A stretch of DNA of 44,501 bases from Bifidobacterium breve. GTDB taxonomy: Bacteria > Actinomycetota > Thermoleophilia > Solirubrobacterales > Solirubrobacteraceae. Positions within the stretch are counted from its first letter, which is position 1; every line of letters starts with the position of its first letter. Positions 198-28,638 of this stretch are shown one piece after another. The stretch is from the NCBI GenBank assembly GCA_945878865.1, contig CAMCUD010000035.1:1-44501 (forward strand), given 5' to 3'. The notes below the pieces were generated by a model. That model was not told where the DNA came from. It searched no databases and was given only the letters and a program-made list of their open reading frames with translations. A program made the translations under genes and the position numbers.

Positions 198-3100
198 TTG
201 TCCAGGCAGTGGGGTCGCGGCGTGCTGTCCAGCGCGCTTGCGGCAATTGTCGTCCTCGGGACGCCAGCTTTGGCGTCCGCGAAGGTGTCGTTCACAGGCG
301 TCGTGGCGAAGCCAATCGCCGCGTCGTCGGAGTGCTCGTCTTTGAGCGAGCCCGCAACCGTCTCGCAGGCGGGCAAGCGCACGGATTTCTGCGTGTCGCT
401 GGCCGTCAACGGCGGTCCAGATCCGAAGCTCGGGGACATCCCGGGGCTCGGTGACGATCTGAAGGACCTGACCATCAGCCTGCCTCCGGGGCAGGTCGCG
501 TCGCCGAAGGCCACGCCGCTCTGCTCGCGCTCGACCTTCCTGTCGAGCAAGGGCTGCCCCGCGAGCAGCCAGGTGGGCGTGCTCGCCCTCGCCGTGGACG
601 TCTTCGGCGTCGGCCGGATCGACGAGCGGCTGCTCCAGGGCAAGGTGTTCAACCTCGCGCCGCAGGGCACCGAGGGCGCGCGGCTCGGCCTCGCGGTCGA
701 CGTCAACGTCCCGATCCCGGGCGTGTCCCTGCCGAGCCTCATCCATCTCGAGACCGAGGCGCGGCTGCGCGCGTCGGACAGCGGGCTGGACTCGATCACG
801 CTCGACAACCCGCGTGACCTCGAGGGCATCCCGCTGGAGGTGCGCCGCCTGAGCCTCACGCTGTGGGGCAGCAAGGCCGACCACCCGACGCTCACGAAGT
901 CGTTCATGAGCAGCCCGACGACGTGCGATCCCGCGGTGACGAAGATCACCGCCGTGTCGTACGCCGGCGACACCTCGAAGGCCCAGACCTCGTGGACCCC
1001 CACCGGCTGCGACAAGCTCGACTTCGACCCGACGCCGATCTTCGAGAGCGCGCGTGAGGCCGACACGCCGGGCGCGCTGACCTCGGGTGTGGCGCTGCCC
1101 GATCCGGAGGGCCCGCTCGCCCAGTCGCACATCAAGAAGGCGACGGTCGTGCTGCCCCCGGGCTTCGAGCTCTCGCCGACGGTCGGCTCCAAGCCGGGCT
1201 TCACCGGCTGCGCGTCGAACGAGTTCAACCGCTACGACGGCGGCCCGGTCACCTGCCCCGGCGGCTCGCAGATCGGCACGGTGCGCTTCCGCTCGCCGCT
1301 GCTGCTCGCCAACGAGCTCCAGGGCAAGGTCTTCGTGGCCAACCCCGAGCCGGGCGAGCCGAAGGTCCGCTTCTTCGTCTCGGCCGAGGCCGGCCCTGAG
1401 GCCGACGCGGTGCGCGTGAAGCTCATCGCGAAGGTGCAGATCGATCCGGCCACCGGGCAGCTGACGACGGTGCTCGACGATCTGCCCAAGACGCCGTTCA
1501 CGGAGTTCCGGTTCAGCTTCTTCGGCGGGCCCAACGGCCCGGTCGCGATGCCGCGCACGTGCGGCACGTACACCGCGGACACGATCCTCGAGCCGTACAA
1601 CGGCAACCCGACGAAGAGCGTGAAGTCGTCGGTGAACATCGACCAGAACTGCTCCGACCCGGAGCCGTTCGCGCCGACGTTCTCGGCCGACGCCAGCCCG
1701 CTGCTGGCGGGCGCCGGGACGACGCTGACGACGACGTTCACCCGCCCCGGCGGCGGGCGCATGAAGGCGCTGGAGCTCCAGCTGCCCACGGGTCTCTCCG
1801 GCAAGCTCACGGTCGCGCCGCTGTGCCCGCTGAGCGTGGCGGCGGTCGCGGGGTGCAGCGAGGAGAGCCGCGTGGGCCGCGTCGACGCCCTGGCGGGCGG
1901 CGGCAGCGACCCGAAGGCGCTGTCGGGCAACGTCTACCTGACGCAGGGCCCGAACGGCGCGCTGGCCGGGCTGAGCATCGTCGTCGACGTGAAGGTCGGG
2001 CCGCTGGACTTCGGCCGCGTCATCACGCAGGCGACGATCGTCGTGCGGCCGGACACGGGCCTCACGCTCGTCGTCCCGGAGATCCCGCTGCGCCAGGAGG
2101 GCGTCGAGGCGAACATCCGGGAACTGAAGGTCATCCTGGACAAGCCCGGGTTCAACCTGAACGCCACGAGCTGCGCCCCGGCGTCGTTCCAGGGCACGGT
2201 CACGTCGGACACCGGCGCGGTCGCGCCCGTCACGGCGCCCTACCAGCCCAGCGGCTGCGACCAGATCCCGTTCGCCCCGAAGGTCTCCGCCGTCATCGGC
2301 GGCGGCCCGAAGGAGACGGCGATCAACGGCCACCCGTCGCTCGACGTCACGGTGACCCAGCAGCCGGGGGAGGCGAACTCCTCGAAGATGGAGGTCGTCC
2401 TGCCGGAGGGCATCGCCGCCGACAGCGAGCGCCTGCGCTCGGTCTGCACGCTCGCCGACTACGCGAAGGACGCGTGCGCGCCGGACACGGTCAAGGGCAC
2501 GGCGACGGCGTGGTCGCCGCTGCTGCCCGAGCCGCTGCGGGGGCCGGTGACGTTCGTGCAGATCCCGGGCAAGCCGCTGCCGGGCCTGCGGATCAAGCTC
2601 CAGGGGGCACTGAGCATCGAGCTGACCGGCACGGTCGCGTTCGGTGACAAGAACCGCCTGGTCAACGTCATCGATCCGATCCCGGACACGCCGCTCTCCA
2701 AGTTCACCCTGAGCCTGCAGACCGGTCCACAGAGCCCGCTCATCGCGACGAAGGACCTGTGCCAGAGCGCGACGAACACGGTGAACGGCACGGCGTGGTC
2801 GCACGCCGGCAGCTCGGCGACGATCAAGGCCGAGGCCGAGGTCCCGAACTGCGCGCCGGCGGGCACGCTGAAGCTCGGGTCGCTGAAGACCGGGCGGCCG
2901 ACGCTCGACCTGCGCGTCACGGGCACCCGCTCGCAGGTGACGAGCGCGCAGCTCGTGCTCCCGAAGGGCATGGAGTTCGCGTCCTCGACGTCGGTGAAGA
3001 AGCGCCTGAAGCTCAGCGCCACCGGCCTGAAGAAGGGCACGAAGGCGTCGGTGACCGTGAGCGGCGGCGCCATCAAGGTCACGGTCCCGAAGGGCCAGGC

Positions 3101-3260
3101 CGCGACGGTGCTCCGCGTCCGGATCGCCAAGGGCGGGCTGAAGGCGAGCACGCGCCTGCGCAAGCAGGGGCGCCCGCGCCTGGCGTTCCGCCTGAACATG
3201 ACCGCGCCGGGCAACGTGTCGAGCCGGTCCACGCTGCGGGTCCGCCCCGCCGCGCGCTAG
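198..3260 (+). CDS. Large secreted four-module repeat protein, paralog 1
   Basis: I do not recognise a named family. The chosen TTG start at 198 follows a strong GGGGGGAG site and gives 1,020 residues; a longer frame from 150 would begin inside the -10 element. The N-terminus is a signal peptide (basic start, hydrophobic stretch, ASA before the mature end near residue 29). The mature protein contains four related modules at about residues 89-284, 312-496, 523-699 and 729-888. Each has an LPxG-like opening, a cysteine pair, a serine/valine-glycine turn, an LxGxV strand, a P-x(2,3)-F segment and two late cysteines. A lysine/arginine-rich, cysteine-free domain (890-1020) ends the protein. There is no LPXTG motif and no C-terminal membrane anchor. 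The next two genes are paralogs on the same strand. Extracytoplasmic location is inferred from the signal peptide; the role is unknown, with adhesin or envelope component as possibilities. Confidence 0.85.
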   Translation: MSRQWGRGVLSSALAAIVVLGTPALASAKVSFTGVVAKPIAASSECSSLSEPATVSQAGKRTDFCVSLAVNGGPDPKLGDIPGLGDDLKDLTISLPPGQVASPKATPLCSRSTFLSSKGCPASSQVGVLALAVDVFGVGRIDERLLQGKVFNLAPQGTEGARLGLAVDVNVPIPGVSLPSLIHLETEARLRASDSGLDSITLDNPRDLEGIPLEVRRLSLTLWGSKADHPTLTKSFMSSPTTCDPAVTKITAVSYAGDTSKAQTSWTPTGCDKLDFDPTPIFESAREADTPGALTSGVALPDPEGPLAQSHIKKATVVLPPGFELSPTVGSKPGFTGCASNEFNRYDGGPVTCPGGSQIGTVRFRSPLLLANELQGKVFVANPEPGEPKVRFFVSAEAGPEADAVRVKLIAKVQIDPATGQLTTVLDDLPKTPFTEFRFSFFGGPNGPVAMPRTCGTYTADTILEPYNGNPTKSVKSSVNIDQNCSDPEPFAPTFSADASPLLAGAGTTLTTTFTRPGGGRMKALELQLPTGLSGKLTVAPLCPLSVAAVAGCSEESRVGRVDALAGGGSDPKALSGNVYLTQGPNGALAGLSIVVDVKVGPLDFGRVITQATIVVRPDTGLTLVVPEIPLRQEGVEANIRELKVILDKPGFNLNATSCAPASFQGTVTSDTGAVAPVTAPYQPSGCDQIPFAPKVSAVIGGGPKETAINGHPSLDVTVTQQPGEANSSKMEVVLPEGIAADSERLRSVCTLADYAKDACAPDTVKGTATAWSPLLPEPLRGPVTFVQIPGKPLPGLRIKLQGALSIELTGTVAFGDKNRLVNVIDPIPDTPLSKFTLSLQTGPQSPLIATKDLCQSATNTVNGTAWSHAGSSATIKAEAEVPNCAPAGTLKLGSLKTGRPTLDLRVTGTRSQVTSAQLVLPKGMEFASSTSVKKRLKLSATGLKKGTKASVTVSGGAIKVTVPKGQAATVLRVRIAKGGLKASTRLRKQGRPRLAFRLNMTAPGNVSSRSTLRVRPAAR
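2857..3190 (+). repeat. Direct repeat copy A: C-terminal domain shared by paralogs 1 and 2
   Basis: This stretch matches 6057-6390 almost base for base by eye, with differences mostly at third codon positions. The upstream parts of the two genes are much more divergent. It encodes the basic C-terminal domain of the secreted protein. It could be a substrate for gene conversion or for recombination that deletes the 3.2 kb between the copies. Confidence 0.7.
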
Positions 3261-3270
3261 CTGGCCGGCC

Positions 3271-3311
3271 CTCACGTCCCCCGCGCCGTGTCCAGGCGCG
3301 GGGGACGTGAG
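3271..3311 (+). terminator. Hairpin terminator after paralog 1
   Basis: Perfect 17-bp inverted repeat CTCACGTCCCCCGCGCC (3271-3287) and its complement (3295-3311) around a 7-nt loop, starting 10 bp after the stop codon. No T-tract follows, as is common for actinobacterial terminators. Confidence 0.7.
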
Positions 3312-3366
3312 ACTCATCGCACACAAGGCCTCGCGGGGCCCGTGCCACCATCGCTCCCTTCCTTCC

Positions 3367-3387
3367 GCCGAAATTCAGAATTTCGGC
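3367..3387. promoter_or_regulatory. AT-rich perfect palindrome upstream of paralog 2
   Basis: GCCGAAATTC / GAATTTCGGC, 10-bp arms around one base, ending 28 bp before the GTG start at 3416. It is unusually AT-rich for this window. An operator is plausible because it sits at promoter distance; a second terminator hairpin is the alternative. Confidence 0.45.
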
Positions 3388-3415
3388 CTTTCGCAGAGAC
3401 CAGACGGGGGTCGGG

Positions 3416-6400
3416 GTGCAGCAGATTCGTTGGAGGTCGCTGGCGGCGTGTGCCGTGGCGGCCATCGCCGCGCTGAGCGGCGCGGCAAGCGCGCAGGCGA
3501 ACGTCGAGATCACGCAGCTGGTCGCCAAGCCGATCGACCCCGGCGCCACGTGCTCGCCCACCACCGGTGCGACCGCGCTCACCCAGGCCGGCGCGCACGA
3601 GGACTTCTGCGTCGCCCTCGGCCTCAACGGCGGCGGCGACGGCTTCGGCGGCGGTGACGACCTCAAGGACCTCAAGCTCTCACTGCCGACCGGTCAGGTC
3701 GGCAACGCGACCGCCACTCCGCTCTGCTCCACCTCCCGCTTCCAGAGCCTCAACGGCTGCGCGGCCACCTCGCAGGTCGGCCGCGTCACCGCGGGCGTCG
3801 AGTCGATCATCCCTCTGAACGAGGCGCTCATCGGCGGCGGCATCTACAACCTCGAGCCGCGCGGCACCGAGGCTGCCCGCCTCGGTCTCGTTCTCGAGTT
3901 CGGCGACCTGCTCGCCGTCTCGAAGATCGAGGTGGAGATCCGACTGCGCACCGACGACGGCGGCCTCGACTCGCTGGCGTTCGACAACCCGCGTGCAGTC
4001 ATCGGGCTGCCGATCGAGGTCAAGCGCCTGAACCTCCGCCTGTGGGGGTCGAAGACCGTCGGCAGCCGCCAGATGCAGAAGTCGTTCATGGCCAACCCGA
4101 CGGACTGCTCGAAGCCCGCGACGACGAAGGTCGCGATCTCCTCGTACCAGGGCGGCTCGGCGACGAAGTCGGCGAGCTACACGCCCACCGGCTGCGACCA
4201 GGTCCCGTTCGAGCCGGGCATGATCCTCGAAGGCGACCGCACCGCGGACGCTCCCGGGACGATCAGCACCGGCGTCTCGATGCCGTCAGGCGACGAGCCG
4301 CTCGTCCAGAAGCACATCAAGACGAGCGTCAACGTCCTGCCGCGCGGTGTCGAGCTCTCCCCCACGTCCGGCAGCCAGCCGGGCTTCGTCGGCTGCACCG
4401 ACGCGGAGTTCGGCTACGGCCAGGGCGCCCCCTCGACCTGCCCGGCCGGCGCGAAGATCGGCACGGTGCGCTTCCGCACCCCGCTGCTCTCCAAGGCCGT
4501 CGAGGGCGACGTGTTCCTCGCCCAGCCGACCGCGACCTCACCGAAGATCCGACTATTCGTCGTCGGTGAGCTCGGCCCGCAGTTCGACGCCACGCGCGTG
4601 AAGTTCATCGGCGTCGTCGAGCCCGACCGCTACACCGGCCAGCTCGTCACGACGTTCGACAACCTCCCGGCCACGCCGTTCACCGAGTTCCGCCTGACGT
4701 TCCGCGGCGGCCCGACGGCGATCATGTCGCTGCCGCGCGACTGCGGCACGTTCACCGGCCAGGCGATCAACACGCCGTGGGGCTCGTCCACCGAGGACCG
4801 CCGCAACGGCACGCTGCCCGTCGACCAGGGCTGCGAGAACGACCCCGACCCGTTCACGCCGTCGCTCGAGGGCTCCACGTCCACGACGCAGGCGGGCGCG
4901 GACACGGCGATCGTCACGACGCTCGCGCGCCCCGACGGCCACCAGCGCCTGACCGGCGCGAAGATCTCGCTGCCCACCGGCCTCGCCGGCAAGCTCACCG
5001 CGGCGCCCGCGTGCCCCGCGGCCCAGGGCCGCGAGGGCACCTGTGACGCGGCCAGCCGCGTCGGCTCCGTCACGGCGCTCGCCGGCCCGGGCTCGTCGCC
5101 CGCGACGCTCACCGGCGACGTCTACCTGACCGACTCGTACGTCAGCGGTGGTCTCGCCGGCCTGTCGATCGTCGTCCCGGCGAAGTTCGGTCCGCTGGAC
5201 TTCGGCAACGTCGTGTCGACGGCGCAGCTGTCGGTCCGCCCGGACACCGGGATCGACGTCGCCGTCGACGGCATCCCGCAGCGGACGAGCAACGGCATCT
5301 CCGCGCAGATCCGCTCGCTGAAGCTCTCGCTGGACAAGCCCGGCTTCGGCGTGAACCCGACGAGCTGCGCGCCCAAGGCGTTCACCGGCACGCTCACCGG
5401 CGACCTCGGGGGCAGCGGCGACGTCAGCTCGCCGTTCCAGGCGACGGGCTGCGAGAACGTGCCGTTCGGCCCGAAGCTCGAAGCCGTCATGGACGGCGGC
5501 GCGAACGGCGCCGAGCTCGCGCTCAACGGTCACCCCGGCCTGACCACCGTCATCCAGCAGCCCGAGGGCAACGCGAACAACGCCGCGGTCAAGGTGACGC
5601 TGCCGCCGGGTCTGGCGGCCGACACCGACCGCCTGCGCCGCGCCTGCCCGATCGCGCAGTACGAGGCGGGCGCCTGCCCGGCGAGCGCGACGGTCGGCGA
5701 CGTCAGCGCGGTCACGCCGCTGCTGCCCGAGCCGCTCACCGGGAAGGTCACGTTCGTGTCCGTCCCCGGCGCCCCGCTGCCCGAGCTGCGGGCCGCGCTG
5801 ACCGGCAAGATCTCGCTGACGCTGCGCGGCAAGATCACGTTCGGCGCGAACAACCAGCTCGTCGCCGGGTTCGAGGGCATCCCGGACGTCCCGCTCAGCC
5901 GGTTCGTCCTGAACCTCGCCGGCGGCTCGCAGTCGCTGATCATCGCCACGAAGGACCTGTGCCCGATCAGCTCGCTGCCGTTCAAGGGCGACTTCACCGC
6001 GCACTCCGGCGCGACGTCGACAACGACGATCGCCCCGCAGCTGAAGGGCTGCGGCCCGGCGGGCACGCTGAAGCTCGGCTCGCTGAAGACCGGCCGCCCG
6101 ACGCTCGACCTGCGCGTGGCCGGCGGCCGCACGACGGTGAGCACCGCGCAGCTCGTGCTGCCCAAGGGCCTCGAGTTCGCCGCCTCAAAGACGGTGAAGA
6201 AGCGGCTGAAGCTCAGCGCGACCGGCCTGAAGAAGGGCGCCAAGGCGTCGGTGACCGTCAGCGGCGGCGCGATCAAGGTGACGGTCCCGAAGGGCCAGAG
6301 CGCCGCGGTCATCCGCGTCCGCATCGCCAAGGGCGGCCTGAAGGCCAGCACGCGCCTGCGCAAGCAGGGCCGTCCCCGGCTGGCGTTCAAGCTGAGCACC

Positions 6401-6457
6401 ACGACGCCCGACCAGCAGCTGCGCCGCGCCACCTTGCGCGTGCGCCCCTCCGCGTAG
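3416..6457 (+). CDS. Large secreted four-module repeat protein, paralog 2
   Basis: Encodes 1,013 residues from a GTG start. The signal peptide runs to about residue 27 (hydrophobic stretch ending ASA, then QANVEI). The same order as its neighbours follows: an N-terminal segment with two cysteines, four modules of about 160-200 residues with paired cysteines, and a basic C-terminal domain. Similarity to paralog 1 is moderate through the modules and very high in the last 130 residues, where the DNA also matches. The promoter differs from those of paralogs 1 and 3: no TTGnnC/TACCGT pair is visible and an AT-rich palindrome lies upstream, so its expression may be controlled separately. No anchor, catalytic motif or known domain is evident. 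Function unknown; secreted location is inferred. Confidence 0.85.
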   Translation: MQQIRWRSLAACAVAAIAALSGAASAQANVEITQLVAKPIDPGATCSPTTGATALTQAGAHEDFCVALGLNGGGDGFGGGDDLKDLKLSLPTGQVGNATATPLCSTSRFQSLNGCAATSQVGRVTAGVESIIPLNEALIGGGIYNLEPRGTEAARLGLVLEFGDLLAVSKIEVEIRLRTDDGGLDSLAFDNPRAVIGLPIEVKRLNLRLWGSKTVGSRQMQKSFMANPTDCSKPATTKVAISSYQGGSATKSASYTPTGCDQVPFEPGMILEGDRTADAPGTISTGVSMPSGDEPLVQKHIKTSVNVLPRGVELSPTSGSQPGFVGCTDAEFGYGQGAPSTCPAGAKIGTVRFRTPLLSKAVEGDVFLAQPTATSPKIRLFVVGELGPQFDATRVKFIGVVEPDRYTGQLVTTFDNLPATPFTEFRLTFRGGPTAIMSLPRDCGTFTGQAINTPWGSSTEDRRNGTLPVDQGCENDPDPFTPSLEGSTSTTQAGADTAIVTTLARPDGHQRLTGAKISLPTGLAGKLTAAPACPAAQGREGTCDAASRVGSVTALAGPGSSPATLTGDVYLTDSYVSGGLAGLSIVVPAKFGPLDFGNVVSTAQLSVRPDTGIDVAVDGIPQRTSNGISAQIRSLKLSLDKPGFGVNPTSCAPKAFTGTLTGDLGGSGDVSSPFQATGCENVPFGPKLEAVMDGGANGAELALNGHPGLTTVIQQPEGNANNAAVKVTLPPGLAADTDRLRRACPIAQYEAGACPASATVGDVSAVTPLLPEPLTGKVTFVSVPGAPLPELRAALTGKISLTLRGKITFGANNQLVAGFEGIPDVPLSRFVLNLAGGSQSLIIATKDLCPISSLPFKGDFTAHSGATSTTTIAPQLKGCGPAGTLKLGSLKTGRPTLDLRVAGGRTTVSTAQLVLPKGLEFAASKTVKKRLKLSATGLKKGAKASVTVSGGAIKVTVPKGQSAAVIRVRIAKGGLKASTRLRKQGRPRLAFKLSTTTPDQQLRRATLRVRPSA
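6057..6390 (+). repeat. Direct repeat copy B: C-terminal domain of paralog 2
   Basis: Partner of 2857-3190, same orientation. The corresponding region of paralog 3 (about 9285-9620) encodes the same domain but is clearly more diverged in both protein and DNA. Confidence 0.7.
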
Positions 6458-6476
6458 TCACTCCCGCGTCCGACCC

Positions 6477-6508
6477 CTCGCCCACCGCGTCCCAGCGCGG
6501 TGGGCGAG
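6477..6508 (+). terminator. Hairpin terminator after paralog 2
   Basis: Perfect 13-bp arms CTCGCCCACCGCG (6477-6489) and CGCGGTGGGCGAG (6496-6508), loop of 6 nt, 19 bp after the stop codon. No T-tract. Confidence 0.65.
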
Positions 6509-6556
6509 CCTTGAGCGCGCAACTCGCCATGTGGACGGGTGTTTGACAATGTGATG

Positions 6557-6610
6557 TTGCACACACACGGTCGCGGTTGTTACCGTCGAGTGCGTACTGA
6601 ACGGGGGGAG
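6557..6610 (+). promoter_or_regulatory. Promoter and ribosome-binding site of paralog 3
   Basis: TTGCAC (6557-6562), 18-nt spacer, TACCGT (6581-6586), then GGGGGGAG (6603-6610) before the GTG at 6616. A TTGACA also occurs at 6543-6548 but is too far from the -10. Element sequence and spacing match the promoter of paralog 1. Confidence 0.5.
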
Positions 6611-6615
6611 GACTC

Positions 6616-9600
6616 GTGTCAGGTCTGTTGGGTCGCGGCGTGCTCAGATGCGCGCCGGTTGTTGTCGCATGCGTGCTGCTGGTCGGGGTCCCGACCGCCG
6701 GCGCCACCGTCCGCGTGGACCAGATCGTCGCCAAGCCGATCACCGCGTCATCCGCGTGCTCGACCAAGAGCACGCCCACGGTGGATCCGCAGTCGGGGAA
6801 GTACACGGACTTCTGCCTCGCCCTCGCGCTGAACGGCGGCGGCGACCCGGAGCTCGGGGGCATCCCCGGGCTCGGTGATGACGCGAAGAACATGACGATC
6901 TCGCTCGCGCCGGGCCAGATCGGCTCGCCGCGCGCGGCGACCACATGCTCGCCCTCGCGCTTCCGCTCCACGAACGGGTGCTCGAACGCGTCACAGGTCG
7001 GCTCCGTGTCGGCTGCGGTCGAGGGCCTCGTCCCCCTCACCGAGAGCCTGCTGCAGGGCAAGGTCTTCAACCTCGACCCGGAGGGCACCGAGGCCGCGCG
7101 CCTGGGCCTGCAGATCGAGGTGGTCCTCCCCGGCCTGCCCGGCGTTCCCGCGATCAAGCTCGAGAGCGCGATCCGCCTGCGCGCCGACGACGGCGGACTC
7201 GACGCGACGGTGGCCAACACGCCGCGCGACTTCCTCGGCATCCCGATCGAGATGCGCCGCCTGGGGCTGCGCCTGTGGGGTAGCAAGGCCGACCACCCGA
7301 CGATGAAGGAAGGCTTCACGAGCAACCCGACGGACTGCTCGAAGCCGTCGGTGAGCCGGGTGCGCATCGAGTCCTACCGCGGTGACGTCACGACGGCGAG
7401 CGACAGCTACACGCCGACCGACTGCGGGTCGCTGAAGTACTCGATGACGTCGGACATCCTCACGAACCACGAGGCCGACGCCCCGACCTTCGCCACCGCC
7501 GAGATCCGCGTCCCGGCGCCGTCGGGCAACCGGGTGATCGCGCACGTCAAGGAAGCCGAACTCGTCCTGCCGGAAGGCTTCGAGCTCTCGCCGACCGCCG
7601 CGTCCGGCGCGCCGCTGGAGGGCTGCACCGACGAGCAGTTCAACCGCTACGACGAGGGCCCCGTGAGGTGCCCCGCCGCGTCGGAGATCGGCGAGGTGCT
7701 GTTCGACTCGCCGGTGCTGCTGAAGGGCGCGATCAAGGGACCGATCTACCTCGGGATGCCGGCGCCCGGCAAGAAGCTGCGCTTCTTCGCCACCGCCGCG
7801 CTCGGCCCGCAGCCCGACGCGGTGCGCGTCAAGCTCGAGGCCGTTGCGACCGTGGACCCGGTCACCGGCCAGGTCACGACGCGGATGTCCGGACTGCCGC
7901 CGGTGCCGTTCACGCTGTTCCAGTTCACGTTCCGCGGCGGCGACAACGCGATCGTCGCGTCGCCGCGCAGCTGCGGCACGCGTGAGCAGCGGACGACGGC
8001 GACGCTGTTCAGCGGCCAGCCCGACGTCACGACGACGAGCATGATCTCCACGGACAAGGGCTGCACGGATCCGGCGACGTTCACGCCGAACCTCGGGGCG
8101 GCGGCGAACCCGACGCAGGCCGGGGCGGACACGGCGATCATCACGACGCTCGAGCGCCCGGACAAGAACGCCCGGATCTCCAGTGCCACGGTCCACCTGC
8201 CGCCCGGCCTCATGGGCCGGCTGGGGGCCGCAGCGCAATGCAACCTCGGTGACGCCGCATCGGGCAACTGCCCTGCCGAGACCCGGGTCGGCGGGGTCAC
8301 GGCGACCGCGGGCCCCGGTCCGCAGCCGCTGAAGCTGGGCGGCGACGTGTACCTCACCCAAGGCCGGGACGGCGATCCCGCCGGGCTGACGATCACGGCC
8401 AACGCGACGTTCGGCCCGATCGATCTCGGCAAGGTCGTCGTCCCCGGCCGCCTGAAGGTGCGTGACGCCGACAAGGGCCTCGACCTCGTCGTCGAGAACG
8501 TGCCGCAGCGCCAGGAGGGCATCTCGACGTCGATCCGCGCCCTGGAGGTGCGGCTCGACAAGCCCGGGTTCGCCGTGAACGCGACGAACTGCGCGCCGCA
8601 GCAGATCACGGCGGAGCTCGGCTCCGATCTCGGTGGCAGCGCCAGCGTCTCCGCGCCCTACCAGGCGACCGGCTGCGACAAGCTGCCGTACGCGCCGAAG
8701 CTCACCGCATCGCTGTCGGGCGGCGCGAAGGAGGCCGCGGTCAACGGCCATCCGGGCGTGGCGACGGCGCTGACGCAGGCGCCGGGTGAGGCCAACACGA
8801 AGAAGGTCGAGCTCAAGCTGCCGGCCGGCATCTCCATCGACAGCACGCGCATCAACCGCGCGTGTCCGCTGACGACGTTCAATGCGGGCGGCTGCCCGGC
8901 GACGTCGACGCTCGGCAAGGCGTCGGCCACGTCGCCGCTGCTGAACGATCCGCTGAGCGGCCCGGTGGTCATGGTCAACGTGCCGGGGGCGCCGCTGCCC
9001 GAGCTGCGGATCCAGCTCAACGGCATCCTGCCGATCACCCTCGCGGGCAAGATCACGTTCGCGTCGGACCAGCGGCTGATCACGACCGTCGAGCCGGTGC
9101 CCGACGTGCCGCTCTCGCGGTTCGAGCTGTCGTTCAACGGCGGTGACGAGAGCGTGCTGCAGGCCGGCAAGGACCTGTGCGCCGACCCGAACCTGTCGTT
9201 CGACAACACGTTCGTCTCGCAGGCCGGGCCGACGTTCCAGTCCAAGACGCTCGTCGACATCCCCGGGTGCGGACCGACCGCCACGCTGAAGGTCAGCTCG
9301 GTGAAGGCCGGCCGCCCCGCCCTCGACCTCCGGGTCAACGGTGTGCGCAACCGGCTGCGGGTCGTCCGGCTCACGCTGCCCAAGGGCATGGAGTTCCAGC
9401 GGGCGGCGACGGTGCGCAAGCGCCTGCGCCTGAGCGCGACCGGCCTGCCCAAGGGCAAGAAGGCCACCGTGTCCGTCTCCGGGTCGAGCATCCGGATCTC
9501 TGTCCCCAGCGGCGTCTCCGCCAAGACGCTGCGGGCGCGGATCGCCAAGGGCGGCGTCCGCGTCAGCAAGCGGCTGCGACGTGCCAGCGGCCGCCTGTCC

Positions 9601-9672
9601 TTCGGCCTGAGCGCGTCGCAAGTCGGCTCCGTCGACACGCGGACGACGCTGCGGGTCCGGCCCGGGTCGTAG
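6616..9672 (+). CDS. Large secreted four-module repeat protein, paralog 3
   Basis: Encodes 1,018 residues from a GTG start with a strong upstream ribosome-binding site. The signal peptide ends near residue 32 (hydrophobic core, then AGA). The four-module plus basic C-terminal architecture is the same as in the two preceding genes, with module cysteines, LPxG-like openings and late TGC/PGC motifs at the module ends. Its C-terminal domain is the most diverged of the three. It ends in LRVRPGS, like the LRVRP endings of its paralogs, which suggests a conserved C-terminal tail. No enzyme motif, sortase signal or membrane anchor is visible. Function unknown. Confidence 0.85.
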   Translation: MSGLLGRGVLRCAPVVVACVLLVGVPTAGATVRVDQIVAKPITASSACSTKSTPTVDPQSGKYTDFCLALALNGGGDPELGGIPGLGDDAKNMTISLAPGQIGSPRAATTCSPSRFRSTNGCSNASQVGSVSAAVEGLVPLTESLLQGKVFNLDPEGTEAARLGLQIEVVLPGLPGVPAIKLESAIRLRADDGGLDATVANTPRDFLGIPIEMRRLGLRLWGSKADHPTMKEGFTSNPTDCSKPSVSRVRIESYRGDVTTASDSYTPTDCGSLKYSMTSDILTNHEADAPTFATAEIRVPAPSGNRVIAHVKEAELVLPEGFELSPTAASGAPLEGCTDEQFNRYDEGPVRCPAASEIGEVLFDSPVLLKGAIKGPIYLGMPAPGKKLRFFATAALGPQPDAVRVKLEAVATVDPVTGQVTTRMSGLPPVPFTLFQFTFRGGDNAIVASPRSCGTREQRTTATLFSGQPDVTTTSMISTDKGCTDPATFTPNLGAAANPTQAGADTAIITTLERPDKNARISSATVHLPPGLMGRLGAAAQCNLGDAASGNCPAETRVGGVTATAGPGPQPLKLGGDVYLTQGRDGDPAGLTITANATFGPIDLGKVVVPGRLKVRDADKGLDLVVENVPQRQEGISTSIRALEVRLDKPGFAVNATNCAPQQITAELGSDLGGSASVSAPYQATGCDKLPYAPKLTASLSGGAKEAAVNGHPGVATALTQAPGEANTKKVELKLPAGISIDSTRINRACPLTTFNAGGCPATSTLGKASATSPLLNDPLSGPVVMVNVPGAPLPELRIQLNGILPITLAGKITFASDQRLITTVEPVPDVPLSRFELSFNGGDESVLQAGKDLCADPNLSFDNTFVSQAGPTFQSKTLVDIPGCGPTATLKVSSVKAGRPALDLRVNGVRNRLRVVRLTLPKGMEFQRAATVRKRLRLSATGLPKGKKATVSVSGSSIRISVPSGVSAKTLRARIAKGGVRVSKRLRRASGRLSFGLSASQVGSVDTRTTLRVRPGS

Positions 9673-17925: not shown

Positions 17926-19755
17926 ATGGAGCCGACCAGCACCCCGAGTCGACCGCATGGCCCCCGCGGCTCGCTCAACGCGCCGGAGGTCTACGAGAAC
18001 GTCCCCGGCCACATCATCCCGATCCTCCAGAAGGAGTTCGAGGACTTCGAGGTGGAGTCCGAGAAGTTCCTGGACGGTCAGACCCCGGAGCCGGAATTCA
18101 TCGGCTTCCGCCTGAAGCAGGGCGTCTACGGCCAGCGCCAGCCCGACGTCCAGATGATTCGCGTCAAGCTTCCGTGGGGCGGCGTCACGCCCGAGCAGCT
18201 CGAGGCGTTCGCCGACGTCGTCGAGCAGTTCGTGCCGAAGAACAAGGCGCACATCACCACGCGCCAGTGCATCCAGATGCACGACGTGCCGCTGCGGGAC
18301 ATGACGCCGCTCATGACCCGCATCTCCGAGGCCGGGCTCTCCAGCCGCGAGGGCTGCGGCAACACCGTGCGCAACGTCACCGGCGACCCGTGGGCCGGCA
18401 TCGCGCACGACGAGACCTTCGACCCGACGCCCTACGCCGGCGCGTACGTCCGCTACTTCGTGCGCCACCCGACGACGCAGCTCATGCCGCGCAAGGTCAA
18501 GACCGCCTTCGCCGCATCGGACTCCGACCGGCCGATCACCGGCATCCACGACATCGCCTTCATCCCGCGCATCCGGGACGGCGTCAAGGGCTTCGAGATC
18601 CGCGTCGGCGGCGGCACGTCGATCATGCCGCGCGTCGCGCCCACGCTCACGGAGTTCGCGACCGCCGACGACGGCGAGTACCTGAAGATCTCCGAGGCGG
18701 TCTTCCGCATCTTCGACCGCCAGGACTGGCTGCGCGTCAACCGCGCGCGTGCCCGCATGAAGGTCTTCGTCGACAAGTACGGCATGGAGGAGCTGCAGAA
18801 GCAGGTCGCCGAGGAGCTCAAGGGCGACTGGGTCGCCGAGCGCAACTTCGACCCGCAGCCGCTCCTGTTCGTCATCGACGAGACCGAGCAGCTGCCCGCC
18901 GCCCGTGACGACCACGGCACTCCGTCGGCCGACGAGCAGGCCGCGTTCGACGCGTTCGTCGCCGAGAACGTCATGCGTCAGCGCCAGGAGGGCTTCAGCG
19001 CCGTCCAGATCAAGGTCACACGCGGCGACCTCTCCCCGGAGCAGCTGCGCGGCCTGGCGAACGTCGCCCGCGACTACGCCGCCGGCTGGATGCGCACGAC
19101 GATGCATCAGAACCTCGTGCTGCGCTGGGTGCGCGACGAGGCGGTGTACGACGTGTGGAAGGCGCTCGGCGAGCTCGGCCTCGGCGACGCCGGCGCCGAT
19201 CACATCAACGACGTCGTCTCGTGCCCCGGCACCGACAGCTGCAAGCTCGGCATCACGTCGTCGATGGGCCTCAACCGCGCCGTGCAGGCGAAGGTCGAGT
19301 CGATGAACATCACCGACCCGCTCACGCGCAAGATCCACATCAAGATGAGCGGCTGCCCGAACGGGTGCTCCCAGCACCACGTCGGCACCATCGGGTTCTA
19401 CGGCGCGTCGATCAAGGTCGGCGAGCACACGATCCCCGCCTACATCCCGCATATCGGCGGCAACTTCGAGGACGGCGACGTCGTCTTCGGCGCCCGGCTG
19501 AAGGTCCGCATGCCGGCCAAGCGCGCCCCCGAGGCCGTCGAGCGGTGGCTGCGGATGTACGAGGCCGAGCGCGCGAGCGACTCCGAGACGTTCCGCGTCT
19601 ACGCCGAGCGCGTCGGCACGAAGCGCTTCGAGGACGAAGTCAAGGATCTCGCGATCGCCGTGGACTTCTCGATCGAGACGATGCAGATGTTCATCGACTG
19701 GAACCGCGACGTCCCGTTCGTCGTGCAGCGCGGCGAGGGCGAGTGCGCGGTCTGA
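17926..19755 (+). CDS. sir: Ferredoxin-dependent sulfite reductase (SirA/NirA family)
   Basis: 609 residues. It carries the duplicated nitrite/sulfite reductase fold, with siroheme/4Fe-4S ligands C433, C439 (C-x5-C) and C477, C481 (C-x3-C), in CPGTDSC and SGCPNGC. Y68 (GVYGQRQ) and C144 (EGCGN) occupy positions matching the Tyr-Cys pair described next to the siroheme in mycobacterial NirA/SirA; this correspondence is from memory. It reduces sulfite to sulfide with six electrons. Context (cysH, cysD, cysN immediately downstream) favours sulfite over nitrite. First gene of a five-gene operon; its end overlaps the cysH start by 13 bp. Confidence 0.92.
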   Translation: MEPTSTPSRPHGPRGSLNAPEVYENVPGHIIPILQKEFEDFEVESEKFLDGQTPEPEFIGFRLKQGVYGQRQPDVQMIRVKLPWGGVTPEQLEAFADVVEQFVPKNKAHITTRQCIQMHDVPLRDMTPLMTRISEAGLSSREGCGNTVRNVTGDPWAGIAHDETFDPTPYAGAYVRYFVRHPTTQLMPRKVKTAFAASDSDRPITGIHDIAFIPRIRDGVKGFEIRVGGGTSIMPRVAPTLTEFATADDGEYLKISEAVFRIFDRQDWLRVNRARARMKVFVDKYGMEELQKQVAEELKGDWVAERNFDPQPLLFVIDETEQLPAARDDHGTPSADEQAAFDAFVAENVMRQRQEGFSAVQIKVTRGDLSPEQLRGLANVARDYAAGWMRTTMHQNLVLRWVRDEAVYDVWKALGELGLGDAGADHINDVVSCPGTDSCKLGITSSMGLNRAVQAKVESMNITDPLTRKIHIKMSGCPNGCSQHHVGTIGFYGASIKVGEHTIPAYIPHIGGNFEDGDVVFGARLKVRMPAKRAPEAVERWLRMYEAERASDSETFRVYAERVGTKRFEDEVKDLAIAVDFSIETMQMFIDWNRDVPFVVQRGEGECAV

Positions 19756-20411
19756 CCCCCACCGACCTGCCGGACCTCGACGCGCTCGGCGTCGACGAGG
19801 TCATCGCGCACGCGGGCGAGCAGCACGGCAACGGGCTCGTGCTGCTCTGCTCCTTCCAGAAGGAGGAGAGCGTGCTCGTGGACGCCGTCGCGCGGCTCGC
19901 GCCCAAGACGCGGATCGTCACGATCGACACCGGCGTGCTCTTCCCGGAGACGCTCGCGGCGTGGAAGGCGTTCGAGGACCGGTTCGGCGTGCGCGTCGAG
20001 GTCGAGGACGCCTCACGCGCGGGGAACCCGTGGACGGGTCCGGCGGACTGCTGCGGCGTCGAGAAGGTCGCGGCGCTCGAGCGCGCGCTGGCCGGCGCCT
20101 CGGCCTGGGTCACGGGCATCCGCCGCGAGCAGTCGCCGACCCGCGCGGACGCGAGGAAGCTGGAGTGGGACGCCAAGCGCGGCATCCCGAAGTACAACCC
20201 GCTCGCCGACTGGACGGACAAGGACCTCTGGCGGCACATCGCCGAGCGCGACCTGCCGTACCACGAGCTGCACGACCAGGGCTACGCGTCGATCGGTTGC
20301 GCGCCGTGCACACTGCCGGGCTCCGGCCGCGAGGGTCGCTGGGCCGGCCAGGACAAGACCGAGTGCGGCCTTCATGTGGAGTCCGTCTCCCCGGGCGCGG
20401 AGATCGGCTGA
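19743..20411 (+). CDS. cysH: Assimilatory APS reductase
   Basis: 222 residues from the GTG at 19743, overlapping the sir stop. The PAPS-reductase fold is seen in SFQKEESVLVD and TIDTGVLFPET. Cysteines C103-C104 (DCCGVEKV) and C186, C189 (GCAPC) are the 4Fe-4S ligands that define the APS-using type, and C208 in ECGLH is the catalytic residue that forms the thiosulfonate intermediate. It therefore reduces adenylyl sulfate directly, which fits the absence of an APS kinase (CysC) gene or domain here. Electrons come from thioredoxin in this family. Confidence 0.93.
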   Translation: MRGLTPTDLPDLDALGVDEVIAHAGEQHGNGLVLLCSFQKEESVLVDAVARLAPKTRIVTIDTGVLFPETLAAWKAFEDRFGVRVEVEDASRAGNPWTGPADCCGVEKVAALERALAGASAWVTGIRREQSPTRADARKLEWDAKRGIPKYNPLADWTDKDLWRHIAERDLPYHELHDQGYASIGCAPCTLPGSGREGRWAGQDKTECGLHVESVSPGAEIG

Positions 20412-20415
20412 CGCG

Positions 20416-21303
20416 ATGGACCCGCTGATCATCGTCTTCGGCCTGGGTGTGGGCATCCTCGTCGGCATGACGGGGATCGGCGGTGGCTCGCTCATGGCGC
20501 CGCTGCTCATCCTCGGTGCGGGCGTCTCCCCGGTCGTCGCGATCGGGACCGACCTCATGTACGGCGCGATCACGAAGACGGTCGGCGGCTGGCGTCACCT
20601 GAAGGCGGGCACGGTCGACCTCGGCCTCTCGAAGTGGCTGGCGTTCGGCTCGGTGCCCGGGTCGCTCGTCGGCGTCTTCGTGCTCAACCGGCTGCACGAC
20701 AGCTACGGCGAGGACTTCGACCCGGTGCTCCTGACGATGGTCGCCGTGATGCTGCTCGTCGTCGCCACGGCGATCCTCTTCCGTGTCCTGTTCATGCCGC
20801 GACTCAACGAGCGTGAGCGCGACACCGTGGCGCTCACGCGCGGGACGAAGATCCTCGCGGTGAGCATCGGCCTGGTCATCGGCTTCCTGCTCGGCATGAC
20901 GTCGGTCGGCAGCGGCGCGCTCATCGGCCTGGCGCTCATCCTCATCTTCCGGATGACCCCGCACCGCGTGGTCGGAACCGACGTCTTCCACGCCGCGATC
21001 CTGCTGTGGACCGCCGGCATCGCGCACTGGTTCAGCGGCAACGTCGACTGGATGCTCACGGCGAACATCCTCATCGGTTCGATCCCCGGCGTCTGGGCCG
21101 GCACCTGGCTCATGCAGCGCGTGCCCGCCAACGGCCTGCGCCCCGCGCTCGGGTGCGTGCTGCTCGGCTCGGCGCTCGCCGTCCTGAACAAGGCCGGCAT
21201 CGAGGTGCCGATCGCCGCGATCATCGGCGTGCCGCTGGCCGTCGGCGCCCTCGCCTTCGCTCTGAACCGACTTCGTCCGACCCCCGAGGTGGCCACCGCA
21301 TGA
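20416..21303 (+). CDS. TauE/SafE-family membrane transporter
   Basis: 295 residues from ATG at 20416. Two homologous halves each begin with a glycine-rich helix (VGILVGMTGIGGGSLMAPLL and LGMTSVGSGALIGLAL), the hallmark of the TauE/SafE family, with about 8 membrane spans. The family includes sulfite/sulfoacetate exporters and suspected sulfate permeases. Its location between cysH and cysD, 4 bp after cysH and overlapping cysD by 4 bp (ATGA), ties it to assimilation. No ABC sulfate importer is present in the window, so uptake of sulfate or removal of excess sulfite are both possible; direction is inference. Confidence 0.85.
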   Translation: MDPLIIVFGLGVGILVGMTGIGGGSLMAPLLILGAGVSPVVAIGTDLMYGAITKTVGGWRHLKAGTVDLGLSKWLAFGSVPGSLVGVFVLNRLHDSYGEDFDPVLLTMVAVMLLVVATAILFRVLFMPRLNERERDTVALTRGTKILAVSIGLVIGFLLGMTSVGSGALIGLALILIFRMTPHRVVGTDVFHAAILLWTAGIAHWFSGNVDWMLTANILIGSIPGVWAGTWLMQRVPANGLRPALGCVLLGSALAVLNKAGIEVPIAAIIGVPLAVGALAFALNRLRPTPEVATA

Positions 21304-22205
21304 GTAGGACGCTCACCCATCTGGACGCCCTCGAGTCTGAGGCGATCCACATCATGCGCGAGGTCGCGGCGGAGCTCGAGAAGCCCGTGCTGCTCTTCAG
21401 CGGCGGCAAGGACTCGATCGTGCTGCTGCGCCTCGCCGAGAAGGCCTTCCGCCCCGGGAAGTTCCCGTTCCCGCTCATGCACGTCGACACGGGCCACAAC
21501 TTCCCCGAGGTCATCGAGTTCCGCGACCGCCGCGTCGCCGAGCTGGGCGAACGGCTCATCGTCGCCTCGGTCCAGGACTCGATCGACGCCGGACGCGTGC
21601 GCGAGGAGACGGGCATCGGCGCGTCGCGCAACCGCCTGCAGACGACGACGCTGCTCGACGCGATCGAGGAGCACGGCTTCGACGCCGCGTTCGGCGGCGC
21701 CCGCCGCGACGAGGAGCGCGCCCGCGCGAAGGAGCGCATCTTCAGCTTCCGCGACGACTTCGGCGGCTGGGATCCGCGCGCCCAGCGCCCCGAGCCGTGG
21801 AACCTCTACAACGGCCGTGTCCGCCGCGGCGAGAGCGTCCGCGTGTTCCCGCTGTCGAACTGGACCGAGCTCGACGTGTGGGCGTACATCGAGCGCGAGG
21901 GCCTCGAGCTGCCGAACATCTACTTCGCCCACGAGCGTGAGGTCTTCCAGCGCGACGGGATGCTCTACGCGACCGCCGACTTCGTCGAGCGCCGCCCGGA
22001 GGAGGAGCCGTTCGTCGCCACGGTGCGGTATCGGACGGTCGGCGACATGAGCTGCACCGGCGCGGTGCGCAGCGACGCGGCGACCCTGCCGGACGTCGTG
22101 GCGGAGATCGCGGCGACGCGGGTGACCGAGCGCGGCGAGACGCGCGCGGACGACCGGGTCTCCGAGGCCGCCATGGAAGACAGAAAGGTCGCCGGGTACT
22201 TCTAG
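21300..22205 (+). CDS. cysD: Sulfate adenylyltransferase small subunit
   Basis: 301 residues. PP-loop ATP-pyrophosphatase motif SGGKDS at 34-39, then HVDTGHNFPEV, GGARRDEE and FPLSNWTELDVW, all characteristic of CysD. With CysN it forms APS from sulfate and ATP, driven by GTP hydrolysis. The ATG overlaps the tauE-like stop by 4 bp, and cysN starts 2 bp after its end, giving a tightly coupled operon. Confidence 0.95.
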   Translation: MSRTLTHLDALESEAIHIMREVAAELEKPVLLFSGGKDSIVLLRLAEKAFRPGKFPFPLMHVDTGHNFPEVIEFRDRRVAELGERLIVASVQDSIDAGRVREETGIGASRNRLQTTTLLDAIEEHGFDAAFGGARRDEERARAKERIFSFRDDFGGWDPRAQRPEPWNLYNGRVRRGESVRVFPLSNWTELDVWAYIEREGLELPNIYFAHEREVFQRDGMLYATADFVERRPEEEPFVATVRYRTVGDMSCTGAVRSDAATLPDVVAEIAATRVTERGETRADDRVSEAAMEDRKVAGYF

Positions 22206-22207
22206 CC

Positions 22208-23464
22208 ATGGCCGTCCAGACCGCAACGACCCTGCGCCTCGCCACGGCGGGCTCCGTCGACGACGGCAAGTCGACGCTCATCGGGCGCCTGCTCTACGAC
22301 GCCAAGTCGGTGCTCGCCGACCAGCTCGAGCAGGTCGCCGAGGCGAGCAAGCGCCGCAACGGCGACGGCGAGATCGACCTGTCGCTGCTCACCGACGGCC
22401 TGCGCGCCGAGCGCGAGCAGGGCATCACCATCGACGTCGCCTACCGCTACTTCGCCACGGCGAAGCGCCGGTTCATCCTCGCCGACTGCCCGGGGCACGT
22501 GCAGTACACGCGCAACATGCTCACGGGCGCCTCGACCGCCGACCTGGCGATCGTCCTCGTCGACGCGCGCAACGGCGTCGTCGAGCAGACGCGCCGCCAC
22601 GCGTTCATCGCGTCGCTGCTCGGTATCCGCCACGTCGTCCTGGCCGTCAACAAGATGGACCTCGTCGAGTTCAGCGAGGAGCGCTTCGACGAGATCTCCC
22701 GAGACTTCTGCGAGTTCGCGCGCGGCCTGGACGGCGTGCGCGAGGTGACGTACATCCCGATCGACGCCAAGCACGGCGACAACGTCGTACACGGCAGCGA
22801 GCGGATGCCCTGGTATGGCGGCGTGCCGCTGCTCGAGCACCTCGAGACCGTCGAGGTCCACGGCGAGCACGACGACGGGCGCCTGCGCTTCCCCGTGCAG
22901 TGGGTGATCCGCGACCCGGAGACCGGCGCGCGCGAGTACGCCGGTCAGGTCGCGGGCGGCACGATCAAGCCGGGCGACGACGTCGTCGTCCTGCCCGCGG
23001 GCGTGCGCACGACGATCGCCGACGTCCGCACCGCCGACGGCTCCCTGGAGGAGGCCGAGGCGCCGCTGTCGATCACCGTCACGCTGACCGAGGACGTCGA
23101 CGTCGCCCGCGGCGACGTGCTGTGCGGCGCGGCCGACGCGCCGGAGCCCGTTCGCGAGCTCGAGGGCGACGTGTGCTGGATGAGCGACACGCCGCTGCGC
23201 CCGCGCGGCAAGTACGCGCTGAAGCTCGGCACGCAGAGCGTCCGGGTGATCGTGGACGAGCTCGTCGACGTGCTCGACGTCCACACGCTCGACCGCCACG
23301 CGGCGCCCACGGAGCTCGGCGCCAACGACATCGGCCGGGTGCGCCTGCGCGTGTCGCGGCCGATCGTCGCCGACGCCTACGAGGCGATCCGCGGGACGGG
23401 GGCGTTCATCCTCATTGATGAGGGGACGAACGACACCGTCGCGGCCGGCATGGTCACGCGCTGA
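22208..23464 (+). CDS. cysN: Sulfate adenylyltransferase large subunit (GTPase)
   Basis: 418 residues. An elongation-factor-type GTPase: G1 GSVDDGKST at 15-23, an EREQGITIDVAYRYF switch, G3 DCPGH, G4 NKMD, then two beta-barrel domains. It partners CysD. Many actinobacterial and proteobacterial CysN proteins are fused to APS kinase (CysC); this one stops at the barrel domains, which agrees with the APS-type CysH. Last gene of the operon, followed by a hairpin terminator. Confidence 0.95.
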   Translation: MAVQTATTLRLATAGSVDDGKSTLIGRLLYDAKSVLADQLEQVAEASKRRNGDGEIDLSLLTDGLRAEREQGITIDVAYRYFATAKRRFILADCPGHVQYTRNMLTGASTADLAIVLVDARNGVVEQTRRHAFIASLLGIRHVVLAVNKMDLVEFSEERFDEISRDFCEFARGLDGVREVTYIPIDAKHGDNVVHGSERMPWYGGVPLLEHLETVEVHGEHDDGRLRFPVQWVIRDPETGAREYAGQVAGGTIKPGDDVVVLPAGVRTTIADVRTADGSLEEAEAPLSITVTLTEDVDVARGDVLCGAADAPEPVRELEGDVCWMSDTPLRPRGKYALKLGTQSVRVIVDELVDVLDVHTLDRHAAPTELGANDIGRVRLRVSRPIVADAYEAIRGTGAFILIDEGTNDTVAAGMVTR

Positions 23465-27214: not shown

Positions 27215-28564
27215 CTACGCCGCCGCGAGCGGCGCCGTCTCGATAACCGGCTCGGGCCGGGCGTCGATCGACTCGATGCGCACCCGCGCGCCGTGCTGCG
27301 GGGCCAGCGTCACGCTGCGCAGAATGGGGCGCTCCGGCGTGGGATCCACCGCGCTCATCTTCACGCGGGAGTAGAGGATCTTCATGACGTGGCGCATCTC
27401 CATCTCGGCGAACGCCGCGCCGAGGCACCGGCGGATGCCGCCGCCGAACGGGACCCACGCGTACGTGTCCGGGCGCTTGCCCAGGAAGCGGTCGGGGTTG
27501 AAGACGAACGGGTTCTCGTACGTGTCCGCGCGGTGGTTGACGAGGTACAGCGCGACGTTGACCGTCGTGCCCGCGGGCAGCTCGTAGCCATCGAGCGTGA
27601 GCGGCTTGAGGAGGTTGCGCCCGATGATCGGCACGACCGGGCGGTCGCGCAGCACCTCGTAGATCGCGGCGTCGATGTACGCCGCGCCGCCGTCGGGGCC
27701 GGCCAGCTCCTCCTGTAGGCGCGCCATCGCGGCGGGCGTGCGCAGGAAGCGCTCGGCCGCCCACGACAGCGACGTCGCGGTCGTCTCGTGGCCGACGAGC
27801 AGCAGCGTGACGAGCTCGTCGCGCAACTCCTGGTCGCTCATGCGGCTGCCGTCCTCGTCCTCGGCGAGCATGAGCAGCGACATGATGTCGTTGCGCTCGG
27901 CGAGGTCGGGCAGCGCGCGGTGGTGGGCGATCTCCTCGTAGACGAGGCGGTCGATCTCCTTGCCCATCTTCGCCATCGGGCCGGCGAGCTTCTTGCGCGA
28001 CGCGAGCACCATGTCGAACATCGAGCGCGGCCCGCTCGTGGCGCGCTTCGTCATCTCGACGATGACGGTGCGCAGCGCGTCCTGGCGCGCCGCGTCCTCC
28101 ATGCCGAAGATGATCGCGAGGATCGTGTCGAAGGTGATCGCCTGCATCTCCTCCTGGAGGCGGATCTCCTGCCCGGGCCGCCAGGTGTCGATGCGCTCGT
28201 GCGTGAGCTGCTCGATGACCGGGCCCCACGGCTTGAGCCGGTCACCGCGGAACGACGGGGACAGCAGGCGCCTCTGGCGCAGGTGGCCCTCGCCGTTGAG
28301 CGTCAGCACCGAGTGCTCGCCGAGGAACAGGCCGAGCGCGGTCGACGACGACACCGTCGGGACGTCCTCGCGCGGGGCGGTGAAGATGGTCTTGACGTCC
28401 TCGGGCCGCGTGATCATCACGGTGGGCTGGACGCCGGCGAGCTCGAACTGGAACGTGTCGCCGCACTCGCGCTGCAGGCGGCGCAGCAGCGTGGTCGGGC
28501 GCGCCAGGAAGCGCAGCGTCGTGATCGGCGCGGGCAGGCTCGTGCGGGGCGGCTGATCGGTCAC
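27215..28564 (-). CDS. Cytochrome P450, paralog 1
   Basis: 449 residues from GTG at 28564, chosen because TACCAT (minus, 28572-28577) lies 7 nt before it; an in-frame GTG at 28585 would give 456 and overlaps no better signal. P450 landmarks: I-helix LVGHETTATS, K-helix EVLRDRP (ExxR), and the heme-thiolate loop FGGGIRRCLGAAFA. No membrane anchor or fused reductase; soluble bacterial class needing separate redox partners, none of which is nearby. The C-terminal region and heme loop are closely similar to the upstream P450, indicating tandem duplication. Substrate unknown. Confidence 0.92.
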   Translation of the reverse strand: MTDQPPRTSLPAPITTLRFLARPTTLLRRLQRECGDTFQFELAGVQPTVMITRPEDVKTIFTAPREDVPTVSSSTALGLFLGEHSVLTLNGEGHLRQRRLLSPSFRGDRLKPWGPVIEQLTHERIDTWRPGQEIRLQEEMQAITFDTILAIIFGMEDAARQDALRTVIVEMTKRATSGPRSMFDMVLASRKKLAGPMAKMGKEIDRLVYEEIAHHRALPDLAERNDIMSLLMLAEDEDGSRMSDQELRDELVTLLLVGHETTATSLSWAAERFLRTPAAMARLQEELAGPDGGAAYIDAAIYEVLRDRPVVPIIGRNLLKPLTLDGYELPAGTTVNVALYLVNHRADTYENPFVFNPDRFLGKRPDTYAWVPFGGGIRRCLGAAFAEMEMRHVMKILYSRVKMSAVDPTPERPILRSVTLAPQHGARVRIESIDARPEPVIETAPLAAA

Positions 28565-28638
28565 CCGCCGGATGGTACCCGGCACCCCGTGACGCGCGCG
28601 AGCGTGGTTTTCCCGGATTGTGGTTCGTTACGAGGCGG

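Follow-up and report, generated by a model that had tools for sequence, protein, structure and literature searches.

Among the described systems close to the proteins analyzed here are the MSCRAMM adhesins (ClfA, SdrC/D/E, CNA and Ace), being likewise exported, built of tandem Ig-like sandwiches, and the best structural neighbors of our models. Unlike these adhesins, the present family has no MSCRAMM Pfam domain, sorting signal or hydrophobic helix, and it shows two predicted disulfides per module and a strict alternation of two module types, a and b; its paired-domain unit recalls the MSCRAMM N2-N3 pair, with the match lying in the single module (Z 8-9) and a whole-model TM of about 0.2. The Gram-positive sortase pilins (EbpB, LrpA, CppA) resemble the family in how its single modules and its C-terminal domain are predicted to fold, but the family has neither a C-terminal sorting signal nor an adjoining sortase and owes its chain length to repeats inside a single polypeptide. 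Giant repetitive adhesins, such as SiiE and the RTX adhesins, are also secreted, long strings of Ig-like domains with extreme length variation, whereas the proteins studied here yield no RTX or BIg matches in Pfam, are pinned by cysteines and have no recognized type I secretion signal. The Als adhesins of Candida, which are eukaryotic and GPI-anchored, contain tandem Ig-like N-terminal domains and rank first in the Foldseek search, yet have no sequence relation to the family. The family resembles modular surface adhesins or stalks, but has neither the sequence domains nor the anchoring signals of the known adhesin families.

The window, that is, the whole 44,501-nucleotide stretch analyzed here, is the entire contig C35 of its genome (G000) and begins about 200 bases upstream of the first of three adjacent genes, denoted A, B and C (Table 1), each encoding an exported, four-module protein of about 1,000 aa. 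A start of gene A at the TTG at position 198, which GGGGGGAGAGAAC precedes, is plausible and yields a product of about 1020 aa. An earlier note on this DNA had described the same order of parts in the three tandem genes (signal peptide, N-terminal cysteine pair, four modules, basic C-terminus), which the open reading frames and the order of the cysteines confirm; it had also called the proteins giant, a term that does not suit products of about 100 kDa, although relatives reach about 7,200 aa. The interest lies less in the triplet than in the sizeable, unnamed, modular extracellular family to which it belongs, with its strict growth rule and its occurrence in an order of bacteria about whose cell surface little is known. 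We give about an even chance to the reading that A, B and C are paralogs within a family of exported, envelope-attached, rod- or adhesin-like proteins that consist of Ig-like modules and are anchored through a cationic end.

Table 1. Coordinates of the three genes, their modules and the associated hairpins in the window
Feature	Coordinates	Strand	Evidence
Gene A (ORF 1036 aa): signal peptide, M1-M2-M3-M4, basic C-terminal domain (CT)	198..3260	+	ORF, Cys order, module HMMs
A module M1 (a-type; holds extra N-terminal Cys pair)	282..1013	+	module HMMs
A module M2 (b-type)	1014..1655	+	module HMMs
A module M3 (a-type)	1656..2264	+	module HMMs
A module M4 (b-type, end module)	2265..2858	+	module HMMs
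A CT, basic, Cys-free, net charge about +27	2859..3257	+	module HMMs, charge
Perfect 17-bp hairpin 3' of gene A; likely terminator, without U run	3271..3311	+	z -5.6
Gene B (1013 aa): signal peptide, M1-M2-M3-M4, CT	3416..6457	+	ORF, Cys order, module HMMs
B module M1	3503..4201	+	module HMMs
B module M2	4202..4837	+	module HMMs
B module M3 (structure modelled)	4838..5458	+	module HMMs, AlphaFold
B module M4 (structure modelled)	5459..6058	+	module HMMs, AlphaFold
B basic CT (structure modelled)	6059..6454	+	module HMMs, AlphaFold, structural neighbors
Perfect 13-bp hairpin 3' of gene B; likely terminator	6477..6508	+	z -5.4
Gene C (1018 aa): signal peptide, M1-M2-M3-M4, CT	6616..9672	+	ORF, Cys order, module HMMs
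C module M1	6709..7431	+	module HMMs
C module M2	7432..8067	+	module HMMs
C module M3	8068..8682	+	module HMMs
C module M4	8683..9276	+	module HMMs
C basic CT	9277..9669	+	module HMMs, charge

Profile comparison indicates that the four modules are homologous. With profiles derived from an alignment of 17 family members and cut at the late cysteines, self-comparison produced E values far beyond chance (M1-M3, 9e-31; M2-M4, 1.4e-27; M3-M4, 6e-19; M1-M2, 4e-16; M2-M3, 1e-13; M1-M4, 2e-13), so that the four related modules per protein proposed earlier hold up. Because the best partner of M1 is M3 and that of M2 is M4, the protein reads a-b-a-b, an alternation of two subtypes. The module consensus includes, besides the cysteines, the LPxG strand and the LxGxV(Y) strand already noted from the sequence, but the size had been underestimated at 160-200 residues, the modules spanning about 200-240 aa. 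The C-terminal domain was considered as a further cysteine module and rejected: its profile similarity to M4 covers only 34 columns around the LPxG strand.

The predicted mature chains of A, B and C each contain 18 cysteines, namely, an N-terminal pair and four in each of the four modules, in identical order and, in B and C, at spacing similar to that in A (125,136,259,287 / 354,369,471,501 / 559,569,675,703 / 766,776,871,901). The additional cysteines of B (12) and C (12 and 19) lie within the signal peptides, so the count of 18 is kept in each mature chain. The module cysteines are all invariant or nearly so across the 17 members. The N-terminal pair, by contrast, although present in A, B and C, does not mark a separate segment as had been supposed, but is a variable portion of M1 that is absent from several paralogs. 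The first two cysteines of a module are within about 10-15 residues of each other, and, given the secondary structure of the model and the near-total conservation of the cysteines, each module probably forms two local disulfides, as the note had suggested, with C1/C2 around a short helix and C3/C4 closing a beta hairpin; variation across members is too low for cysteine co-loss to decide the pairing.

Structure prediction assigns a familiar fold to these modules. The AlphaFold (AF2) model of the M3-M4 dimodule, built from eight sequences, reached a pLDDT of 81 and a pTM of 0.77, and that of M3-M4-CT a pLDDT of 82 and a pTM of 0.70. In the models, every module is all-beta apart from a short helix next to the early cysteine pair, the late pair flanks a beta hairpin, and the module is predicted to be an antibody-like, Ig-like beta sandwich; the basic C-terminal domain, for which only the basic character had been noted, is itself predicted to be a Cys-free Ig-like domain. 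Among the neighbors of the modules and the C-terminal domain retrieved with Foldseek and VIA-align (Ace, CNA, ClfA, SdrD, Als and EbpB, Z 8-9), the single modules matched Ace (Z 9.1, rmsd 3.6, 138 aligned) and CNA (Z 8.5), whereas the best neighbor of the C-terminal domain was the basal pilin EbpB (Z 9.2, rmsd 3.1, 115 aligned). These matches share about 10% identity and have a whole-model TM of about 0.2, with a Foldseek probability of about 1.0 for the MSCRAMM adhesins. The tool itself cautions that models lacking a clear match typically reach a best Z of 7-8, and the values of 8-9 may reflect merely the common arrangement of a sandwich. As far as the models go, the structural matches point to a fold class, not to membership in the adhesin or pilin families.

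The earlier statement that no known domain family comes to mind stands for the sequence but not for the predicted fold. For A, B and C, neither Pfam (no family at E<=1) nor NCBIfam (nothing relevant at E<=1) yielded a relevant model, and the PHROGs and PDB sequence searches returned no match; isolated hits, such as DnaJ at E 0.05, were dismissed as chance. In particular, these proteins matched no MSCRAMM-type domain in Pfam at E<=1, no SLH anchoring domain in Pfam or among relevant NCBIfam models, and no RTX repeat in Pfam, with no transporter gene kept beside the family loci; DUF11, an LPxG-containing beta repeat, gave no match at E<=1 in the Pfam and NCBIfam scans, and neither a pilin sorting signal at the termini nor an adjacent pilin sortase among the neighbors was found. 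None of the papers searched dealt with this family, which, judged by the sequence libraries searched (Pfam, NCBIfam, PHROGs and PDB), is undescribed.

Across some 60 loci, module HMMs establish a single architecture formula, M1-(M2-M3)n-M4, with the C-terminal domain added in most. The observed values of n are 0, 1, 3 and about 9 to 15, and the proteins accordingly range from ~490 to ~7,200 aa: about 490-700 aa at n = 0, about 1000 aa at n = 1 (most genes), about 1865 aa at n = 3 (two genomes of the window's genus), and about 4,600 to 7,200 aa at n of about 9 to 15 (one genus of another family). The giants, with very basic tails, are L041+L042 (G042; the longest chain, read in these two pieces), L049 (G039), L088 (G045) and L089 (G048). 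Among 65 genes that extend from M1 through to M4, the module count is even in every case but one, where a spurious 7.8-bit fragment in the tail adds to the count. A variant architecture, M1-M4-M1-M4, occurs in L087, and several distant members have a very short tail after M4. Between related genomes, the giants are colinear in part, with insertions or deletions of whole dimodules setting them apart, which makes the dimodule the unit of length change. The formula lends itself to cheap tests of length against repeat number, of disulfide pairing and of sortase-free anchoring by charge.

Profile comparison (E down to 1e-25) recognizes this module also in exported relatives of 215-345 aa. Like the family, these secreted proteins lack a family name, but they contain one module only and no C-terminal domain of this type. 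The window's own genome encodes at least eight of them, including five in a row on contig C11, of ~240 aa each (L098 4976-10000; G000:C11:16975-22981, extending beyond the end of L098); two of the three other copies sit 2-4 kb from multi-module genes (C52 and C18).

The family is largely confined to the window's order, which comprises soil bacteria. Of 299 genomes sampled across the class, 53 were positive, all within the four families of this order where the full family was seen, and samples across the phylum added three marginal matches outside the order; these genome counts are lower bounds, because scoring was limited to a few candidates in each genome. A scan of genome contigs recovered one locus (L030), in a Solirubrobacteraceae MAG, matching the same-genus G002, a match that assigns the window to the Solirubrobacteraceae, and no relative was found in viral contigs. 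Many relatives from the same taxonomic family have no detectable copies, and the lineage can therefore do without the function.

The window's own genome carries 12 family genes with 52 modules, nine of the genes lying scattered outside the triplet. A tree of 34 proteins groups almost all of the tested genes of this genome, including A, B and C, with orthologs from two congeneric genomes, which implies that the copies predate the split of these three genomes; the nearest paralog of B lies on contig C6. Recent tandem duplication is thereby rejected, and the triplet is a piece of an old, dispersed family, ordinary within its paralog set. The lineage-specific expansion put forward earlier thus applies to the family as a whole, but not to the three adjacent copies. 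Tandem clustering in other genomes, which the note had proposed to look for, is seen in a complete congener, but with an interruption: its locus holds four copies, the last two of which are separated by a glucose/sorbosone dehydrogenase-like gene, and the copies in the window's genome are mostly dispersed. Because the congener has four copies and the window's contig begins so close to the 5' end of gene A, the triplet may be a partial view from which a fourth, upstream copy is missing in the assembly. As a separate observation, A and B are 80% identical over the last 100 aligned residues and about 50% elsewhere (2859-3257, 6059-6454), a pattern shared by the congener copies and suggesting that the C-terminal domain has undergone gene conversion.

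The orthologs evolve under purifying selection, with dN/dS of 0.26-0.46 compared to 0.20-0.30 in neighbor genes. Such values, well below 1, refute the notion that the genes are antisense or random reading frames of DNA with 71-72% GC, a notion that minus-strand ORFs of 1057 aa and 876 aa overlapping A and C might have encouraged; with plus-frame protein conservation across dozens of genomes and near-invariant module cysteines in 17 members, we consider an artefact exceedingly improbable. The elevation of dN/dS over the neighbor genes, together with many old paralogs that have separate orthologs, would fit secreted soluble binders of polysaccharides, lipids or other compounds present in soil, the paralogs differing in specificity. 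Ig-like folds often bind ligands, the proteins have no membrane anchor, and ABC transporter genes lie downstream of the triplet. However, these transporter genes lie on the other strand and do not accompany other family genes, Pfam reveals no known binding domain, and the basic tail that recurs across the family speaks for proteins retained on a polyanion; we regard soluble binders as improbable. No conserved operon partner emerged, the neighbors of 20 family loci sharing only generic enzymes, which, together with the strong hairpins after A and B, suggests that the genes are separately transcribed and self-sufficient.

Returning to the reading of an envelope-attached rod, the export-type N-termini of A, B and C confirm the exported system that had been proposed, and from the properties of the chain we infer a surface location and an adhesive role. 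No standard anchor is present: about 60 members have no C-terminal hydrophobic stretch or transmembrane helix (maximum KD19 <=1.35), and the C-termini of the members inspected bear no LPXTG-type sorting signal. In view of the missing signal, sortase anchoring is rejected, despite two sortases encoded outside the tandem locus (contigs C6 and C10). The tails are instead strongly basic (mean net charge +26.7, minimum +11, in 40 four-module genes with tails >=80 aa), and the mean module charge runs from N to C as -6, -7, -1 and +5 (M1 vs M4, p 8e-8). Under the model we favor, the Sec pathway would carry the chain out of the cell, where it would fold and be oxidized; the cationic C-terminal domain would be held non-covalently on polyanionic envelope polymers, the neutral-to-acidic modules would extend outward as a stiff, disulfide-pinned stalk, its length depending on how many dimodules it contains, and M1 would be displayed to make contact with surfaces, matrix or other cells. 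Whether their function is adhesive or structural, the proteins probably form a coat or stalks on the cell surface, although the basic tail could also bind other polyanions or act as a processing signal.

The acidic-to-basic polarity along the chain also accords with modules forming a wall-associated layer or an extracellular matrix rather than a ligand-binding tip, in which they would pack with each other and the basic C-terminal domain would lie against the acidic modules of neighbors. About a dozen co-existing paralogs, disulfide pinning, the lack of partner genes and length variation by whole dimodules speak for such a coat, but A, B and C contain no SLH or other described S-layer domain, and the maintenance of the paralogs as distinct ortholog lines suggests separate roles; this arrangement is possible, if somewhat unlikely. 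It is doubtful, too, that the proteins represent a new class of bacterial surface filaments with one gene per filament, in which the number of a/b dimodules would encode the length in the DNA and, with no sortase, pilus machinery or membrane anchor, the filaments would be anchored, or joined head to tail, by charge only, through the acidic N-terminal modules and the strongly cationic C-terminal domain.

Elsewhere in the window, positions 17926-23464 hold a probable assimilatory sulfur cluster (a sulfite reductase and a TauE-type exporter, together with a GTP_EFTU protein, possibly a subunit of sulfate adenylyltransferase), and positions 27215-29964 hold two adjacent, related minus-strand genes, one of them a confirmed cytochrome P450.
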